From Sanghuangporus weigelae (taxonomy: Eukaryota; Basidiomycota; Agaricomycetes; Hymenochaetales; Hymenochaetaceae), in assembly GCA_033182465.1 (NCBI GenBank), contig CP137321.1, positions 2,170,001 through 2,234,000 on the forward strand: a DNA stretch of 64,000 bases. Direction: 5' to 3'. Below are positions 3,630-58,494 of the stretch, in pieces. The notes below the pieces were generated by a model. The model was not told the origin of the DNA, searched no databases, and saw nothing but the letters and a program-made list of their open reading frames with translations. How positions within the stretch are numbered: position 1 is the stretch's first letter; every line of letters starts with the position of its first letter. A program made the translations under genes and the position numbers.

Positions 3630-4868
3630 TGTGGCTAGAAAACGCTGAAGATGAGTGACCAGTCCAGTCCAAGTGTCGACACAGAGCACAGCGCCGTTAC
3701 GTCGATCATCCGCGAATGGAAATCATCGTGGTGATTTTTGATTAGCGCCGATTTCAATCTTTTCTTCATGGAAAACACCACAGTTTGAACCATCACCGTT
3801 CTCGCTACTCCTTTTTTTCGGTTCGTGAATTCTGAACACACTCGTCTGTTTGAAATGTGAAATGTTCTTTTTTTGCCCTTCAAATAAGTCCCTTGTGCCA
3901 TCAATCTTTGCCCTGGTTCTTTTGAGTAAGGAGATCATTTGACGACTGCATTGCGATGATACGAACGACGAAAAGAATGCAGCTTTCACCTTGTTTGCAA
4001 CCTTCAGTTTGTACAGGAGCGGCATTTCTCCTGTATTCATTGTATTGTGATCCATAAGTAGTATCAAATTGTTTTAGCAGTGCGAGATGGTATTACTTAT
4101 CGTCATGGTGTGCGATCATCAGCTTGGGGACTATGCAACAATGTTACCCGGCATTCTCTAAACGTATTCTTGTATTTGTCTAGTTTGGATACTGGATCGG
4201 TGAAGGGACATTTCGATTCGAGCTATGTCATTCATCGCCTCTCCTCTCACACCAGCAGCGATGCCACAGGAGCTGATGATAACTACTATGCCGTCACCAC
4301 CCACGGCGAGAACAAGAAACATAGAGTGAAGTCCCGATCATCCTGCAGGTTTTATGTTTGCCACTTCTTTGTATTTGCATTTCCGAAGTTGAGAATACGC
4401 GACATCCACGTGACAGATGAAACGGCTTCCGCCAGCACAATTCCTTCCCCACAAATCAATCGCTCATAGGCTGAGACCTGCTGGGGCTCAAGGCGATGAT
4501 TCTGAGTATCAATTATTGTTCCCAACCGGACCTTGTAATTCTCAAGATTCTCCGGGAATAACATTTATCAACATTCCATACTTACTTATCTCTAGACAGT
4601 CACGGTTCCTTTGACCTTAGACCCTACCGCATGAACGGCGGTGTGCCCTCGGCCGACGACCGTTGCTTCCGTGCATGCTCCCATCGATGATCGTCTCTCG
4701 GGACCCTACTTTTCTTTTGAATATGATCCTTACATTCGGCCCCAACGGTGTTCCCGTGCCTGCGGTGCGATCAATCGTATTCCAGTCGTCTCAAGCGCAC
4801 ATGCGCTGACTCATGTATAACCTTCCTTACAGCCGAGCCCATCTGCGGTATTACCCTCGAAGCAATAG
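3630..4868. other. Intergenic region, no supported gene
   Basis: Between VPS17 (-) and the first CCCH paralogue (+), both strands carry only short open frames with no recognisable motif or consistent splice structure. A stretch around 4620-4830 can be read as an open segment (with FSFEYDPYIRPQR) but has no start in frame and no family I know. It may be 5' untranslated or promoter sequence of the downstream gene, or a decayed coding fragment. Confidence 0.5.
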
Positions 4869-4983
4869 ATGGTAATTTCGTTTCTGGCACCCTTTATAAT
4901 CCCTTACTTCTCCATCTGTCCGGTTCCCTCTCACCCACCTATCTCTCCCTTCACATCCCGTACCACCTTGCACTTTCAAGATT

Positions 4984-7092
4984 ATGTTGGAGCAGCCGGA
5001 AAGCCCATCCGTAAGCCAGACAAAGCAGCAAGTCTTGTACGTTCGGCTGTCATGCCACTCTACATCATGCCTCTGCCGAAGGTCGCTTCGCTAACGCAGC
5101 GCCTTTCAGCGATCATTATCTTTACCGCTTGCAGAGTGAGACGGATTGCCTCGCGGAAGCTGGCGTTCGCTGATCGTTGGTTTATCCATCTGCAGGCGAG
5201 ATCCACACTATATTGTCGGCAGAATCGGGCCACGAAGGGCGCATCCAAAATCGTGAGTACTTAGAGTACCGTGTTCGCATGGTATATTATCTTGACCAGC
5301 ATTTCACATTAAAGTTGAGAGCGAACTAGACGTCTTCAAGCGTGCTTGCTTCACCGCGGAGAACGAGAAGCGAGTGTTCAGTGATGAAGTCGCGCTCCTG
5401 AAACAAAAGCTTGAAGCCTTAGAATCGCACAGATCCGTGGGTCGTCATGGAATTCTCTCGGTTATTCCACCTCCTGACAGCACGGATTGTAGTTATCGGA
5501 AAGGCGGATCGTTTGTCTATTGGACGGAAACGGCACCATATTCTCCGTCGACCTCTTGTCTGAAGGTCATGAAGGCGGCCGTCTTGCAGCGAAGCTTCTT
5601 AGTGAATCCATTCACTACCATTTGTCTTCCGACCAACCTTGTCATATCTGGACGTATGTCTTCTTCAATAGGAGACGTGTGTATGACACGCTTGGGAAAG
5701 TGGGAGGGCCGAATAGAGAGGCCCGGGACAGGTTTGATGAGTTCTTGTCGGGATTCAATCAGTCAAGTGAGAAGTTTGTTATGACTGATGTAGGGAACGA
5801 TGATGAGGCCGTGGTTGCAAAAGTGAAAGGTGTGTCGGGATGCTTCGAATAATTATGACTCTAGCTGATGACTTGTGCTCTTGATAAAGCACATCTTGAA
5901 TTACATACCAGGTCTGAAGAAACGCACAGGGTCGTTTTTGGAGGCGAGTACATTCAAGAATCGTTGTGGAAGTAAAGGCTCACGGAAATTCCACTAATTA
6001 GCATGCCACAACAATGCCTATTTGTCTCAGTTGCACGCACTCCAGCTTACTTCGATTTACCGGGAAAAGCTCGTACTCCTCCCGGGATGCACAGAGGTTG
6101 TTTCGGAATTCAGCACTCTGCAATTTCCCAGTCTGGTCATTCCCAATCTGTTTATTCCCAACAAAATTGACCTGGCTGCCGCTACGTGTGCCAGTTCAGG
6201 TGGTGGAAACACGGGGAGATATGATGCTCCTCCTGGATTACCTTCGCCATCAAGCACAGAGCATGATTTGCAACTACACTCTGGAAGTTTAACTCCACCT
6301 CCCCCTCCTCCGTATCTGGACCAGGCCGAGTCTAAAATTGCATCCACCGACGTCATCGAGGCGAAGGTGGAGGACCCTATTGAAAGCTTCGCGCCTCCTT
6401 CACATTCATCGAACCCGGACCGTCGCCAACGTGTGATATTAGGCCGAGTCGCCGGTCCCGTGAGCTTTCGTCCATTGGCGCAACGATGGACACAAGACCA
6501 CCTGCGGTCCCAAGGGGATCTCAACTCCGAAGATACCGAAGGCACCAGGAGTGGTGCCAATTCCGTCAAAACCTTCGGGAAGCAGAGGAAGATCAATCGT
6601 GAGATAGTGAGTGCTCTTCGTCTCATATGCTTACGGCAAAGAAGAGGACGGCTTATCGCACAACGAATTCTAGCCTCTCAGTCAGCACAACCCTCCGCCC
6701 TGCACGTTATTCTATCTTGCTGCGAATGGGTGCAAGCACGGTCCAGACTGCAGATTTGGTCACGATTATATACTCGATGATGATGATTTTGAGGCCTTAA
6801 GACTAAATGCGAAGAAAGTCCCGTGTCCAGCAGTCAACAGGGGTTCGTTCTTGATTTTTGCCGCCGTTTGAAACCTTGTCTCTGAACTGCGTCATACAGG
6901 GGAATCCTGTGTCTTTGGCACGAGCTGTTGTTATGGCCATACTTGTCCCTTCTTGACCCGTTGTCACTACTTCAAGCAAGGGAAATGCAAGTTCCAAGGA
7001 GGTGTGTTTGATCGATTCTGATTCCACTACCACGCTTCTAATCTTTTCTTGTGCGATCAGCGAACATGCATCGCGAGGAAGAAGAGGCTTAG
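4984..7092 (+). CDS. CCCH zinc-finger protein with DUF7923-like domain, tandem copy A
   Basis: Ten exons (4984-5036, 5110-5135, 5196-5252, 5315-5436, 5493-5829, 5890-5943, 6002-6606, 6674-6842, 6900-7001, 7061-7092) keep phase and give 518 residues. Order: coiled coil (to ~86), a DUF7923-like globular domain starting CLLDGNGTIFSVDLL (~90-280), a Pro/Ser-rich linker, then CCCH fingers. Finger 1 is C-x9-C-x5-C-x3-H (NPPPCTLFYLAANGCKHG..), finger 2 is C-x8-C-x5-C-x3-H (CVFGTSCCYGH). A third Cys/His cluster (CHYFKQGKCKF) follows and the protein ends HREEEEA. CCCH fingers usually bind RNA; the role is unknown. The intron after 5943 appears to use a GC donor, because the paralogue next door has GT at the same place and phase. 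An alternative start at 4869 would add an ATG-only exon. Confidence 0.82.
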
Positions 7093-7822
7093 ATCTACCC
7101 GTCTCTTCGCAAAACATCACCGACCTGGTCGAGATAACTAGGCGCCCGTGAATTATGGTAGTTCTGACAGCTCACCTTAAAGTTATTGAGGATATTCGAT
7201 TGTTGGATTACTGTGATATTTGCTATCGATATCGCCCATGTTAGGACATTTTTCCTGTATCGTGTACGGTTAGATGTATCATTTGTATTATTTTTTCACA
7301 TGTTGCTTTCTGTTCCCTATGTACCAATAGTATCTTATTTTTCTGAGAGGCTTTATAAATGATTACATAACGAAACGCGGATCCTGGCACGCGTCTACCA
7401 CGTTCCTCGACTCATTACATTTACACCATGTTTCAGCACCAGCATGTACCCGCTTTAGCATCCATTATCCATTGACCTCGTGCAATGGAAGGAGTTGTAG
7501 AGTTAAGGGAAAGTCTTCGAATAAATAAGGTATGTGAATAGTGTGTAATTACTTCTGTTCATATTATGTGGGTGGAGCACCGGTACCAGCGTCTATCAAC
7601 ACTGGCTCAGAGGCTCTGCAGTACTTCTCGAAACTAGTACTCGTCTTCGTCTGTTAGACCCCTCATCTGGAAATGCTGTGAAGCTCCGTTCTAGCATGTT
7701 CCTCGTTCAATTCTTATTATAAGCAGTTTACGAGGATTGGACACTCACTGCTCTTTCTCCCCCCACCTCTCTCAGAAACCTCGAATGACAACCCTTAATG
7801 ACCACGCTCCGCTTATTCAACA
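7093..7822. other. Intergenic spacer between the tandem CCCH paralogues
   Basis: No convincing open frame on either strand. The stretch is moderately AT-rich after 7200 and becomes CT-rich (7750-7775, a run of pyrimidines) shortly before the start of copy B, as is common upstream of basidiomycete start codons. I see no transposon ends or RNA gene. Confidence 0.5.
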
Positions 7823-9784
7823 ATGGTGAGTATTGTGTCTTTGGTGTAATTACTCTGGGATTGAGCATTTGTACAAACAGGGATGGTGTGTTTAACAATC
7901 TAAAAGGTGACAGCCACTCCGCTACTAGTCAACGGGATTGTGAATAGTGGCATAGAATTGGCGTCAACTACCGTCAAGTCGAATATAGAGCTTTCCCAGC
8001 GAGTGAGTGACTTGGAGAATGATCTTCAGGTATGGAAGCTCGCGCGCACGAATGCTATCGATGTACAACAACGAGAGAAGATCCAGTACGAAGAAGAGAT
8101 CAAGAAATTACAAAAGCGCATTAGCGTTCTCGAGTCAATGCAGGTGAGTAATTGGACGTATCATGGCTCAGCGATGTGACTCGCTGATGATCGCTATTGC
8201 ACAGGAATCCATGGTTCTCTGTATACTAGACGGGGATGGGAACATCTTCGCAGACCATTACCTCAAGGCCGGACTCGAAGGAGGTCGGGAGGCAGCTAGA
8301 AGACTCACACACGGAATTTACAGCTATCTGGAGGAAAACGGATACAGCGGACAATCTTCCCGTTTCACTTTTTGGTTATCCATATATTTCAATAGGAAAG
8401 GACTTCAGGAAACACTGGTTAGGAGCGGTGTCTGTAGAGCCGACCAGTTTGAGGCATTCGTGGTCGGCATTAGCCAGGCATCGCCACGATTTTTGCTCGT
8501 TGATGTTGGCTATGGGAAGGAAGCCGCTGACTCGAAGATTAAAGGTTAAATGCTTTATTATTCTGGTTTTCGGGGTATGAATTATTGAATGGTTATTTTT
8601 AGAATATTTGCAGACGTACACGCGGTTTCCGCAGACTTTAAAAGTGTTCTTTGGAGGTGCGTTCAATGCTTATGACGTATTTGTAAGCGCTCGTCTGAGA
8701 CTGTACTAGGCGGGCATGATAATGGTTATCTGCCAACGCTTGCAGCTCTAGAAAATGAGCGTCTCTTGCAGAGAATAGTTCTGTTACAAGGATATCATGA
8801 CACAGCGACAGAACTGAAGGCCCTTAATCTCCCGACATTAAACCTCGATAACCTCTTCCGTACGGTGAAGCTTTCTGGCTCATTGCCGACTTCGCAGCTT
8901 CCTACATCACCGTCAACTTCCGTTTCCGATATTTCTGTTTTTCCACCCGACTTAAAGCCGTATACCCAGCCTTCATATGGAAGCACACTACACTCGAACA
9001 GCATAGTGCAAACTGTCAAGAAAACGATTGATCCGAAACTCGTACGTTCTTTTTCTTCGATTCTCACCCAAAGCTGATTTCTTTTCCTGCCATCAGCCTT
9101 TGTCAAAACGTACGCCGATCATTCCATTCCGTTGAGTATCTTATCAACGTTCATACAGAAGACCCTCCCCCTTGTAATGAACATTACCTCCTAAAGAGAT
9201 GCCCGAGAAAAGTAAGCCCGGTCTTTTTCCTTGCCGCCTTCACTCACAAAACATCGGTCATAGGAGAATTGCAAATATGGACACGACTATGATCTTTCTC
9301 CAGAACATATCACCGAGCTGGCAAAGTATGCTAAGAATACGCCGTGTCATGCGACTAAGAACGGTATGCAAAGCTTCAGACTAGATACGCGTTTCCTTGG
9401 AGGCTGACCGTCGCCTAGGATTCAAATGCACGTTTGGTGTCACCTGTATCTGGGGACATACTTGCCCTAGAGGGACGAAATGCTATTATTATAAGCAAGG
9501 AAAGTGTCGATTCAAGACTGGTGAGTGCTCGCGTTATTACCATTGTTTACCTCTCGACTCAATCGTATTGCTCAGCCGAAGCTCATCTTGAGGATGCCAA
9601 TGGCATATCCGCTCATTCACCGAGCGTCTCAGTTCATTCGCTTAGAAGCTCTATCCGGCCCCCGGACGAGTCTGCTCAAACTTCTGGCTCTCGCACTGAC
9701 GTTCCTGATCGCTTTGGTCCACCACCAGGACTGTCGAAATTGGACTCACTTTTCGGAGATGCGTTGAATCTTTCGCTCAACTGA
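7823..9784 (+). CDS. CCCH zinc-finger protein with DUF7923-like domain, tandem copy B
   Basis: Paralogue of the gene immediately upstream. Exons 7823-7825, 7907-8143, 8205-8544, 8603-8656, 8710-9041, 9097-9109, 9159-9211, 9264-9363, 9419-9520 and 9576-9784 sum to 480 codons plus stop. The coiled coil (LSQRVSDLENDLQVW) is followed by the DUF7923-like domain (CILDGDGNIFADHYL). Finger 1 is C-x8-C-x5-C-x3-H (CNEHYLLKRCPRKENCKYGH), finger 2 is CTFGVTCIWGH after CHATKN, and a third cluster is CYYYKQGKCRF. The protein ends in a tail containing RFGPPPGLSKLD. The only in-frame ATG ahead of the coiled coil is 7823-7825, directly followed by a GTGAGT donor, so the first exon would be just the start codon; this is the least certain part. 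Finger 1 is divided by two introns absent from copy A. Confidence 0.8.
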
Positions 9785-10048: not shown

Positions 10049-11208
10049 ATGTCTTCTGTGAGACACATATTGACCCTCAGTCACCTGCGATAGCTTACCA
10101 TCAAGCTTTCAGCATGACGATGATGAGCTTAACGCGTCGGAGACACCAGGTTGGTTAGCTATCTTGCATGGTAACGAGAGTTGATTGAATGATGCATGGA
10201 ATTGCAGGATACAAGGTGACTGCTCCAGCGAAGGTATCCTCACTCTTCATGAAATTTGAAGATAGTGAGCTGATCGGAAGCGCAGAGTCCCGAGGAATAT
10301 GCAAAGATGGACGAGGAGGATGAAAGCTTGGCAAGATGGAAGGCCAGCTTGGGCATCGCCCCCGGAGCTGCTATCGGTCCAGCAGAGGGTCCAAAGGTTC
10401 TCGATTCTGTATTTTGTGCACAAGCAACAACGCAAACTTTCAATGCCCTGTTTGTATGCAGGTCACCGTGCTCGGTCTGGAGCTTGTGTCGCCGACGCTT
10501 CCGGCTGGGAAATCACTAGTGCTTGATCTGTCGGATCCCCAGGCATTAGCAGAAGTGAAAAAACATCCGTTCACTATCAAGGAGGGTATAGAGTACAAGT
10601 AAGCCATAACTCACAGATAATCTTGACTCGGTGATTTAACTGCTTAAAACAGTGTGCGGATTAGATTTAAGGTTAACCATTCCATTATTTCGTGAGTTAT
10701 TTCTATTGAGCGTGTAATCATCTGAGGTATTCTTACTCCATCCCAGGGTATGTTTCTCGTGCCAGCCTCGACATGTATAGGTTCTGAATGCTTGGGTTAG
10801 GGAGTGAAATACCTTCAGGTCGTGAAACGTTCGGGGATTAAAGGTTAGTATCTAACAGGTATTGTGTTTAGGTCTAAAAGGCTTTACTGACGCAAACTAT
10901 AGTCGACAAAATGGAGCAGATGCTCGGTTCTTACGGTCCATCGCCGTATGTGTGATGCTTTGTCCCATAAACCCATTGTTCAAATTTGTTCGAAATAGCG
11001 AGCCCTACACGAAGAACTTCCCGACTGAGGAATCTCCATCCGGTATGGTTGCTCGTTCGGGTACTTATAACGTTAGAAGCCGTGTTATCGATGATGACAA
11101 GGAAGTATATGCTGGTAAGTCGCCTCCCTTTGGATTGGTTGCACATGAATTCTCAGACTTGTCATTCTAGACTTCGATTGGTCATTCAAGCTTGCGAAGG
11201 ACTGGTGA
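10049..11208 (+). CDS. RDI1: Rho GDP-dissociation inhibitor
   Basis: Cytosolic chaperone that extracts prenylated Rho/Cdc42 GTPases from membranes and holds them in the GDP form. Eleven exons (10049-10057, 10113-10149, 10208-10233, 10286-10396, 10462-10598, 10653-10691, 10747, 10801-10843, 10903-10945, 10999-11114, 11171-11208) total 600 nt, 199 residues, the usual family length. The N-terminal helical arm (EDESLARWKASLG) precedes the immunoglobulin-like domain: LELVSPTLPAGKSLVLDL, FTIKEGIEY, a SGVKYLQ strand, VDKMEQMLGSYGPSPEPY and the closing DFDWSFKLAKDW. The seventh exon is a single G at 10747. Without it the frame breaks inside the conserved SGVKY strand, while both flanking introns (55 and 53 nt) have normal GT and AG ends. 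Family call is secure; the one-base exon rests on frame and conservation. Confidence 0.93.
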
Positions 11209-57180: not shown

Positions 57181-58494
57181 TCAAGAATTATGTTTTGGCT
57201 TGAAAGTTGTCACTCGTCCAAACAGGTCACTGGTTCCCCAGATGCCTTTACGCAAGCACGCAAGTTGCGCGATCTGCGAATGGTCGACGAAGACATTCAC
57301 ATCCGCTCCAAGTGTTTGGATGTAGTATCTGATCAGAACGGGTCAGCTCATCCCTCATAAATCAGCTTAGATACACACGCGAAAACTGCAGGTTCAGCTG
57401 CTTCAAACATGAGCTTGTCCACAGGTAGAGCAGACGTAAGGGAAGAAACGACGTCCGTGCGCCATTCCTTGACATTCTCTGTTATACCTTCCGACTCAAT
57501 CTATTTGTACGAAATTTGGTCAATAAAAACACAAGAGAATAATAAAGGCGCCGACCATGATTCTATCGGCTCCCGCGGCCAAGAATTTCTCCGCTCTCTG
57601 TAAAGACGTATTAAATTCAAGTGCATATATACTGCTGCGAGTGCAATTACCTCGATAACCCAGCGCGGATCACGGGTGCCTTTACTCTCGAGGCCTTCGG
57701 TGTCTCCACCAGCTCCGAAAAGAATTCCAATCTCGGGCTTCGGCTTGAGACCAATCGACTTCGTGAGCTTCACCAAAGCAGTCCAGTCATCGGTCGGCAG
57801 GGACAGGAAGCCGCAGGATAGTTCAAGGACGTCAAAACTACGTACATGATAAAAAGTGAGTTCACGGCCCGATATAAGCGAGCAAAATCGTACCCCATTT
57901 CTTTACACTTTTCAAGGTATTTTCCAACCACTTTTGTGTCGCCACCAGACGAAGCTAGGACACGCTCGATGTATCCACCAGTAGAAACATATGTATCATG
58001 GGAATGTATCATGTCAATAAGGCGCTTCAATCGGGTGGGTGGCATCAGAGTGAATGAGCCACCAGCGAACTATGCGCCGCTGAGTGATATTTCCAACATG
58101 AAAAAAAAAAAAAATCATCAAACCTTTACACCATCCACAAATTCTACCAGACTATGTCAGCCCTCAAACTGGCACCAGAATAGGATTGCATACCTCCCCA
58201 GTCACTGAGAAGTTCATCGAGGTAGGTGTATGTGACTGGATTATAATACGATCCACGAATTTCAGTCAGGCCCTTGCTGCGCTCGCCTCGGCCGCTCTTT
58301 GGGACAAGCGCATTCGTTGGCAAGAAGGCAAACTGAGAGTCTGCTGACGTTTCTCGTGCCTTCGATCCGACAGGAGCAGAATAACTGAACAGCCTCGCGT
58401 GTTGAGCATAGGCGCCGGTTCTCCTCGTGAAAGCAGAACGATTCAAACAGCCAGTAAGGCCTCTAAGGTAGCGCAGTGTGCAGCTGTTGGCCAT
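57181..58494 (-). CDS. Phosphosulfolactate synthase-like (ComA/HSA32 family) protein, probably mitochondrial
   Basis: Family of TIM-barrel proteins: archaeal ComA joins sulfite to phosphoenolpyruvate for coenzyme M; plant HSA32 supports heat memory. The first ~40 residues (MANSCTLRYLRGLTGCLNRS, many Arg, no acids) look like a mitochondrial presequence. Family segments: YTYLDELLSDWGEFVDGVK, FAGGSFTLMPP, TYVSTGGYIERVLA, the barrel strand near FDVLELSCGFLSLP, KPEIGILFGAGGD, and GADRIMVESEGITE. The C-terminal part has YYIQTLGADVNVFVDHSQ, CLRKGIWGTSDLFGRV and ends FKPKHNS. Five or so short introns include a 20-nt exon (AATTTGTGG.., near 58115-58135). Fungi do not make coenzyme M, so the reaction is unknown. 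Confidence 0.85.

Follow-up and report, generated by a model that had tools for sequence, protein, structure and literature searches.

Analysis of a 64,000-nucleotide stretch of Sanghuangporus weigelae DNA (the window) indicated that a single G at position 10747 is very probably a constitutive one-nucleotide exon of RDI1, a Rho GDP-dissociation inhibitor gene, and that the intervals on either side of it (introns a and b) are two ordinary introns that would be removed successively. The direct evidence for this exon lay in the splice signals, the reading frame, the homology of the product and the rarity of such a split by chance.

Rho-GDI is a regulator of small GTPases. The RDI1 model, in which exon borders were anchored by eye, runs from ATG to stop in 11 exons (Table 1), with a CDS of 600 nt including the stop, a product of 199 aa and ten introns of 52–65 nt, all GT-AG. 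In agreement with the earlier note, which had identified the gene as Rho-GDI, the product matched Pfam Rho_GDI (PF02115) at 198 bits (E 1.6e-58, cut-off 26.5) over almost the full length of the family (profile positions 7–193 of 193), and human RhoGDI1 was its best solved relative (phmmer E 1.2e-39), with 44% identity to the human stretch. The product had no match in NCBIfam, a library built for prokaryotes, and no relatives (0) in viral and genome contig collections, which are not meant for eukaryotes, searched with the protein alone and with a two-sequence alignment.

Table 1. Coordinates of RDI1 and of the features around its one-nucleotide exon (positions within the window; percentiles are relative to 142 reference introns)
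Feature	Position	Strand	Description or evidence
RDI1 gene	10049–11208	+	600-nt CDS; PF02115; human RhoGDI1 by phmmer; ab initio model identical
RDI1 exons 1–5	10049–10057, 10113–10149, 10208–10233, 10286–10396, 10462–10598	+	
RDI1 exons 6–11	10653–10691, 10747, 10801–10843, 10903–10945, 10999–11114, 11171–11208	+	
Exon upstream of the one-nucleotide exon	10653–10691	+	39 nt; 3' end TTATTTC; gives TC of Ser-120 codon
Intron a	10692–10746	+	55 nt, GTGAGT...CCCAG; donor 53rd, acceptor 34th, branch 44th percentile
Branch-like site, intron a	10732–10736	+	CTTAC; A at 10735, 12 nt 5' of exon base; branch consensus learned from window
Putative one-nucleotide exon	10747	+	G; third base of Ser-120 codon (TC then G)
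Intron b	10748–10800	+	53 nt, GTATGT...GTTAG; donor 65th, acceptor 9th, branch 57th percentile
Branch-like site, intron b	10784–10788	+	CTGAA; A at 10787, 14 nt 5' of next exon
Exon downstream of the one-nucleotide exon	10801–10843	+	43 nt; starts GGAGTGAAATAC (Gly-121)

The alignment of the RDI1 product with human RhoGDI1 was gapless across the junction of the exons at 10653–10691 and 10801–10843, with S120 and G121 identical in both proteins, which indicates that exactly one base is missing between the two exons. The upstream exon ends in ...ATT ATT TC and the downstream exon starts with GGA GTG AAA TAC. As claimed in the earlier note, removal of the whole 109 nt (10692–10800) as a plain GT-AG intron shifted the frame, giving ...SIISE* with a stop at codon 122, and a lone G was indeed found between an AG and a GTATGT in the middle of this interval (core CAG-G-GTATGT, 10744–10753), dividing it into introns of 55 and 53 nt at the coordinates proposed. 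Translation confirmed that the 600-nt CDS and the sequence SIISGVKYLQ are restored when this G is kept. Retention of intron a produced a stop at codon 121, retention of intron b a stop at codon 131 and retention of both a stop at codon 121. Tests of frame, homology and Pfam score all indicated that G10747 was required for the frame and the conserved protein. The fragment spanning the junction scored 131.8 bits against Pfam with the one-nucleotide exon as opposed to 128.5, 112.2, 106.7, 106.2 and 105.4 bits for five alternative junction proteins, which were rejected. The Ser-120 codon is of the form TCN and specifies Ser with any base, so the protein demands a base at this position and not specifically a G. 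G was the commonest base 5' of donors in the window, and in silico replacement of G10747 reduced the gene-finder score from 32.9 to between 31.2 and 31.7.

The window is intron-rich, with 144 introns in 20 predicted genes, and introns a and b resembled the remainder in both size and signals. Thus, 119 of 142 reference introns were 49–70 nt in length, and the donor, branch-like and acceptor scores of introns a and b all fell within the range of the reference set, the weakest signal at the locus being the acceptor of intron b. Introns of at least 109 nt accounted for 7 of the 142, some of which appear, by eye, to be gene-finder joins of fused neighbouring genes, and a single 109-nt intron at the RDI1 locus would be out of the ordinary for this window. 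RNA folding at the locus revealed nothing notable (z -1.5, +0.9 and -1.4); intron a was predicted to fold with its GUGAG donor paired to the branch-like CUUAC, which was not significant when compared with shuffles (z -1.5).

The earlier note had named transcripts that use another frame-keeping splice pair, without the single G, as a result that would count against the exon. Splice paths between 10653 and 10843 were enumerated with one or two introns of 40–160 nt, GT or GC donors and AG acceptors, and 47 of 323 were in frame and free of stops. The path with the one-nucleotide exon ranked first among these 47 both in splice score (+3.3, runner-up -0.9) and in similarity to human RhoGDI1 (360, runner-up 352), and the other single- and two-intron paths, being lower on both counts, were rejected. 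The proposal of a one-nucleotide exon is thus supported at the level of DNA, its twin-intron variant aside.

The same exon was called by a purpose-written gene finder, which combined codon usage with donor, acceptor, branch and length models, allowed exons from 1 nt and made no use of homology. This program was trained on the window with introns a and b excluded from splice training, although the CDS of RDI1 itself was included in the codon table, and it returned the exact 11-exon model with a margin of only 3.1 nats over the best path that lacked G10747. The latter path contained another one-nucleotide exon (10653) and deleted VRIRFKVNHSIIS, which is partly identical in human RhoGDI1. An initial run, for which the site models were set by hand, also called the one-nucleotide exon but departed from the 11-exon model in exon 4 and at the 3' end. 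Across the 23 predicted genes, with 173 exons in total, G10747 was the sole one-nucleotide exon, and local re-runs gave one such exon in 169. The gene finder can nevertheless invent one-nucleotide exons. When single bases were deleted at either exon edge of the 142 introns, 4 of the 284 deletions led to the call of a one-nucleotide exon no more than 150 nt away; three of these were in RDI1 and still used G10747 (one with the addition of a second at 10653) and the fourth was in another gene. This control is a poor measure of chance since most introns in the window are too short to split, and shuffles measure it better. The program also appeared to fuse some neighbouring genes, inflating the list of long introns.

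Other features were noted among the predicted genes of the window. Upstream of RDI1 on the + strand are two neighbouring genes of similar make-up (4675–7092 and 7785–9784), which are probably tandem duplicates; by Pfam, the latter encodes DUF7923 and tandem CCCH zinc fingers, and similar stretches were seen by eye in the former. The gene finder also predicted a putative 5-nt exon (7881–7885, + strand) in the initial part of the DUF7923/CCCH gene. A further gene of this fungal genome, at 57181–58494 on the - strand, belongs to the ComA (phosphosulfolactate synthase) family (232 bits).

The likelihood that such a split arose by chance was estimated from 20,000 dinucleotide shuffles of the interior of the 109-nt interval, with the donor and the 3' end held fixed. 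Of these shuffles, 2,574 contained an AG-N-GT split that left no less than 40 nt on each side, but only 3 contained one with a score as good as that of the real split. On both strands of the window, an equally good split was noted in 1 of 470 GT..AG stretches of 109 nt (a count in which the RDI1 locus must itself qualify) and in 2 of 13,746 stretches of 95–124 nt. Similarly, the summed site score of the RDI1 site was reached by 2 of 370 AG-N-GT sites on both strands, the RDI1 site included. The other site (48568, - strand, CAG-C-GTAAGC) is antisense inside a predicted gene of the + strand and is probably due to chance.

The strongest rival to a one-nucleotide exon is a base missing from the assembly. 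By this account, an exon base at the junction of a single intron of approximately 109 nt is absent, either through an error of assembly or sequencing or through a genuine recent frameshift. The loss of one base at either exon edge would look identical to what is seen, and introns of this length do occur (7/142), but a split as good as the real one must then have been present by coincidence, as in just 3 of the 20,000 shuffles. Moreover, the remainder of RDI1 is intact, and the predicted CDS, which totals 40,461 nt across the window, includes single exons of 1.2–2.8 kb that read through, from which indel errors look rare, although the gene finder could splice around errors and these long open exons are to that extent only suggestive. 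Considered together, these results make a missing base quite improbable.

A single 108-nt intron with non-canonical borders, either GT-TA (10692–10799) or TG-AG (10693–10800), appears very unlikely. When starts from 10686 to 10700 and ends from 10790 to 10811 were scanned, these were the only single-intron borders that gave the same in-frame mRNA as the one-nucleotide exon, so that RNA reads alone, as suggested in the earlier note, would not establish 10747 as the source of the base. Such an intron would, however, have to use non-canonical termini although a canonical AG is one base away and would leave the strong internal CAG-G-GTATGT unexplained. Equally hard to accept is a five-nucleotide exon, GGTAT (10747–10751), between introns 10692–10746 and 10752–10804, with the product SIISVLKYLQ. 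This path is in frame and was second in homology (352 versus 360; 128.5 versus 131.8 bits), but its splice score was 8.5 nats worse (-5.15 versus +3.33), its donor (GTTTCT) is poor, its acceptor (GGGAG) lies just downstream of a better TAG, and it loses Gly-121, which is common to human RhoGDI1.

A nested twin intron (stwintron), formed when an internal intron splits a splice element of the external intron around it, is scarcely credible at this locus. Two adjoining introns of ordinary size in a fungus do recall stwintrons, which are well described in fungi, but no exon base is left behind by a stwintron, and 10692–10800 taken as a single intron is out of frame. The best homology among the 108 of 434 nested combinations that were in frame was 322 versus 360, with loss of part of the conserved strand, and strict donor-split forms reached at most 301. 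Nested enumeration thus did not place RDI1 among stwintrons. Of the stepwise route suggested in the earlier note, by re-splicing or a twin intron, the nested form gave way on this count while successive removal of two introns fits the locus, with a donor, a branch-like site and an acceptor in each half.

For the one-nucleotide exon, we propose that the 109-nt interval is handled by the spliceosome as a pair of ordinary short fungal introns, both complete with donor, branch site and acceptor. Fungal introns of such size are considered to be recognised by intron definition. The acceptor of intron a and the donor of intron b are one base apart, so that spliceosomes could not occupy both introns simultaneously and the introns would be removed one by one. 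The order of removal would be free, with the sites kept intact in both orders. Thus, if intron a were removed first, the donor of intron b would read TCG and then GTATGT, and if intron b were removed first, the acceptor of intron a would still read CCCAG and then G. Donor b scored 5.24 with intron a in place and 5.49 once intron a was gone, and a G follows acceptor a in both orders. The mRNA would contain TTTC-G-GGAGTG, in which the single G fills the codon for Ser in the conserved Ser-Gly pair of SIISGVKYLQ, with a predicted junction of TTATTTCGGGAGTGAAA as opposed to TTATTTCGGAGTGAAA if the exon were skipped. All four mis-spliced products tested (exon skipped, intron a retained, intron b retained, both retained) stop at codons 121–131 and may be subject to decay. 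That the exon serves on this account as a dosage switch, in which the efficiency of capture of the single base sets the level of Rho-GDI and hence Rho/Cdc42 activity, in an arrangement conserved in the clade, is an unlikely extension of the model.

With regard to origin, introns a and b were no more alike than shuffles of them (839 of 1000 scored as high), and tandem duplication of one intron was not supported. In comparisons with the other predicted introns, the best match of each was within reach of 60 shuffled versions. Loss of an exon base with subsequent rescue, or two separate intron gains, may instead account for the arrangement.

If the exon is confirmed, RDI1 would add a nuclear protein-coding gene to a very short list and, as far as a search of open-licence PMC literature shows, would be the first basidiomycete example; among the matches listed in that search, no one-nucleotide exon was found reported in a basidiomycete, although P450 genes of Phanerochaete, a basidiomycete, are reported to have exons as short as 6 bp. 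With two ordinary introns one base apart, the locus would offer a compact system in which to study the order of two splicing reactions that are unable to assemble together. It also carries a warning for annotation: a model of RDI1 that ignores the exon would be truncated or short of part of the conserved strand.

One-nucleotide exons are a known but very small class, to which RDI1 would add. Organellar examples include placozoan cox1 and Ophiostoma mitochondrial rnl, the latter between two group II introns and not spliceosomal. Stwintrons of ascomycetes (PMC9024468, PMC12403724) resemble the RDI1 model in the presence of two adjacent spliceosomal introns and consecutive reactions and differ in that one of the introns lies within a splice element of the other and no exon base separates them. 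Among plants, the one-nucleotide exon of VPS55 (PMC8831610) is, like that of RDI1, needed for full-length protein and was absent from annotations; unlike the latter, it was confirmed by RNA-seq and RT-PCR and is conserved in diverse land plants, although it is lacking in one gene copy or some isoforms. Aligners were reported to miss such exons in plants (PMC8831610). Arabidopsis APC11 (Guo and Liu 2015, PMC4674806) likewise has a constitutive one-nucleotide exon needed for the frame, and its authors favour intron definition and successive removal, as proposed here for RDI1. In that case the base is A, the interval is 422 nt and the exon was demonstrated by cDNA and substitution in protoplasts. 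A potato 9-nt exon for which the downstream intron is removed first is cited in the same paper (PMC4674806).

An earlier nuclear fungal precedent is provided by single-base exons in snoRNA hosts of the Candida parapsilosis group (PMC5033589), in which nuclear spliceosomal introns are one base apart, the base in snR57-55-61 being a G as in RDI1, and more than one splicing order has been described. These are snoRNA host transcripts whereas RDI1 encodes a conserved protein, and some splice sites of the snR57-55-61 transcript are, unlike those of RDI1, regenerated by nested or recursive splicing (PMC5033589). Fusarium CYP621A (Nelson and Syed 2026, PMC12940212) is, like RDI1, a nuclear protein-coding fungal gene with an AG-G-GT core. 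In both genes the exon is inside a conserved motif, its omission breaks the frame, and the combined interval is approximately twice the usual intron, being 139 nt for CYP621A against a median of 56 in F. graminearum. CYP621A is an ascomycete P450 whose exon is reported in 20 Fusarium orthologues and is backed by RNA reads for two species and by comparison with an intronless relative, while RDI1 is known from one sequence. The authors of that study proposed that a cryptic AGGGT compensated for the loss of an exon base (PMC12940212). The single base occupies the second position of a Gly codon in CYP621A as opposed to the third position of a Ser codon in RDI1.
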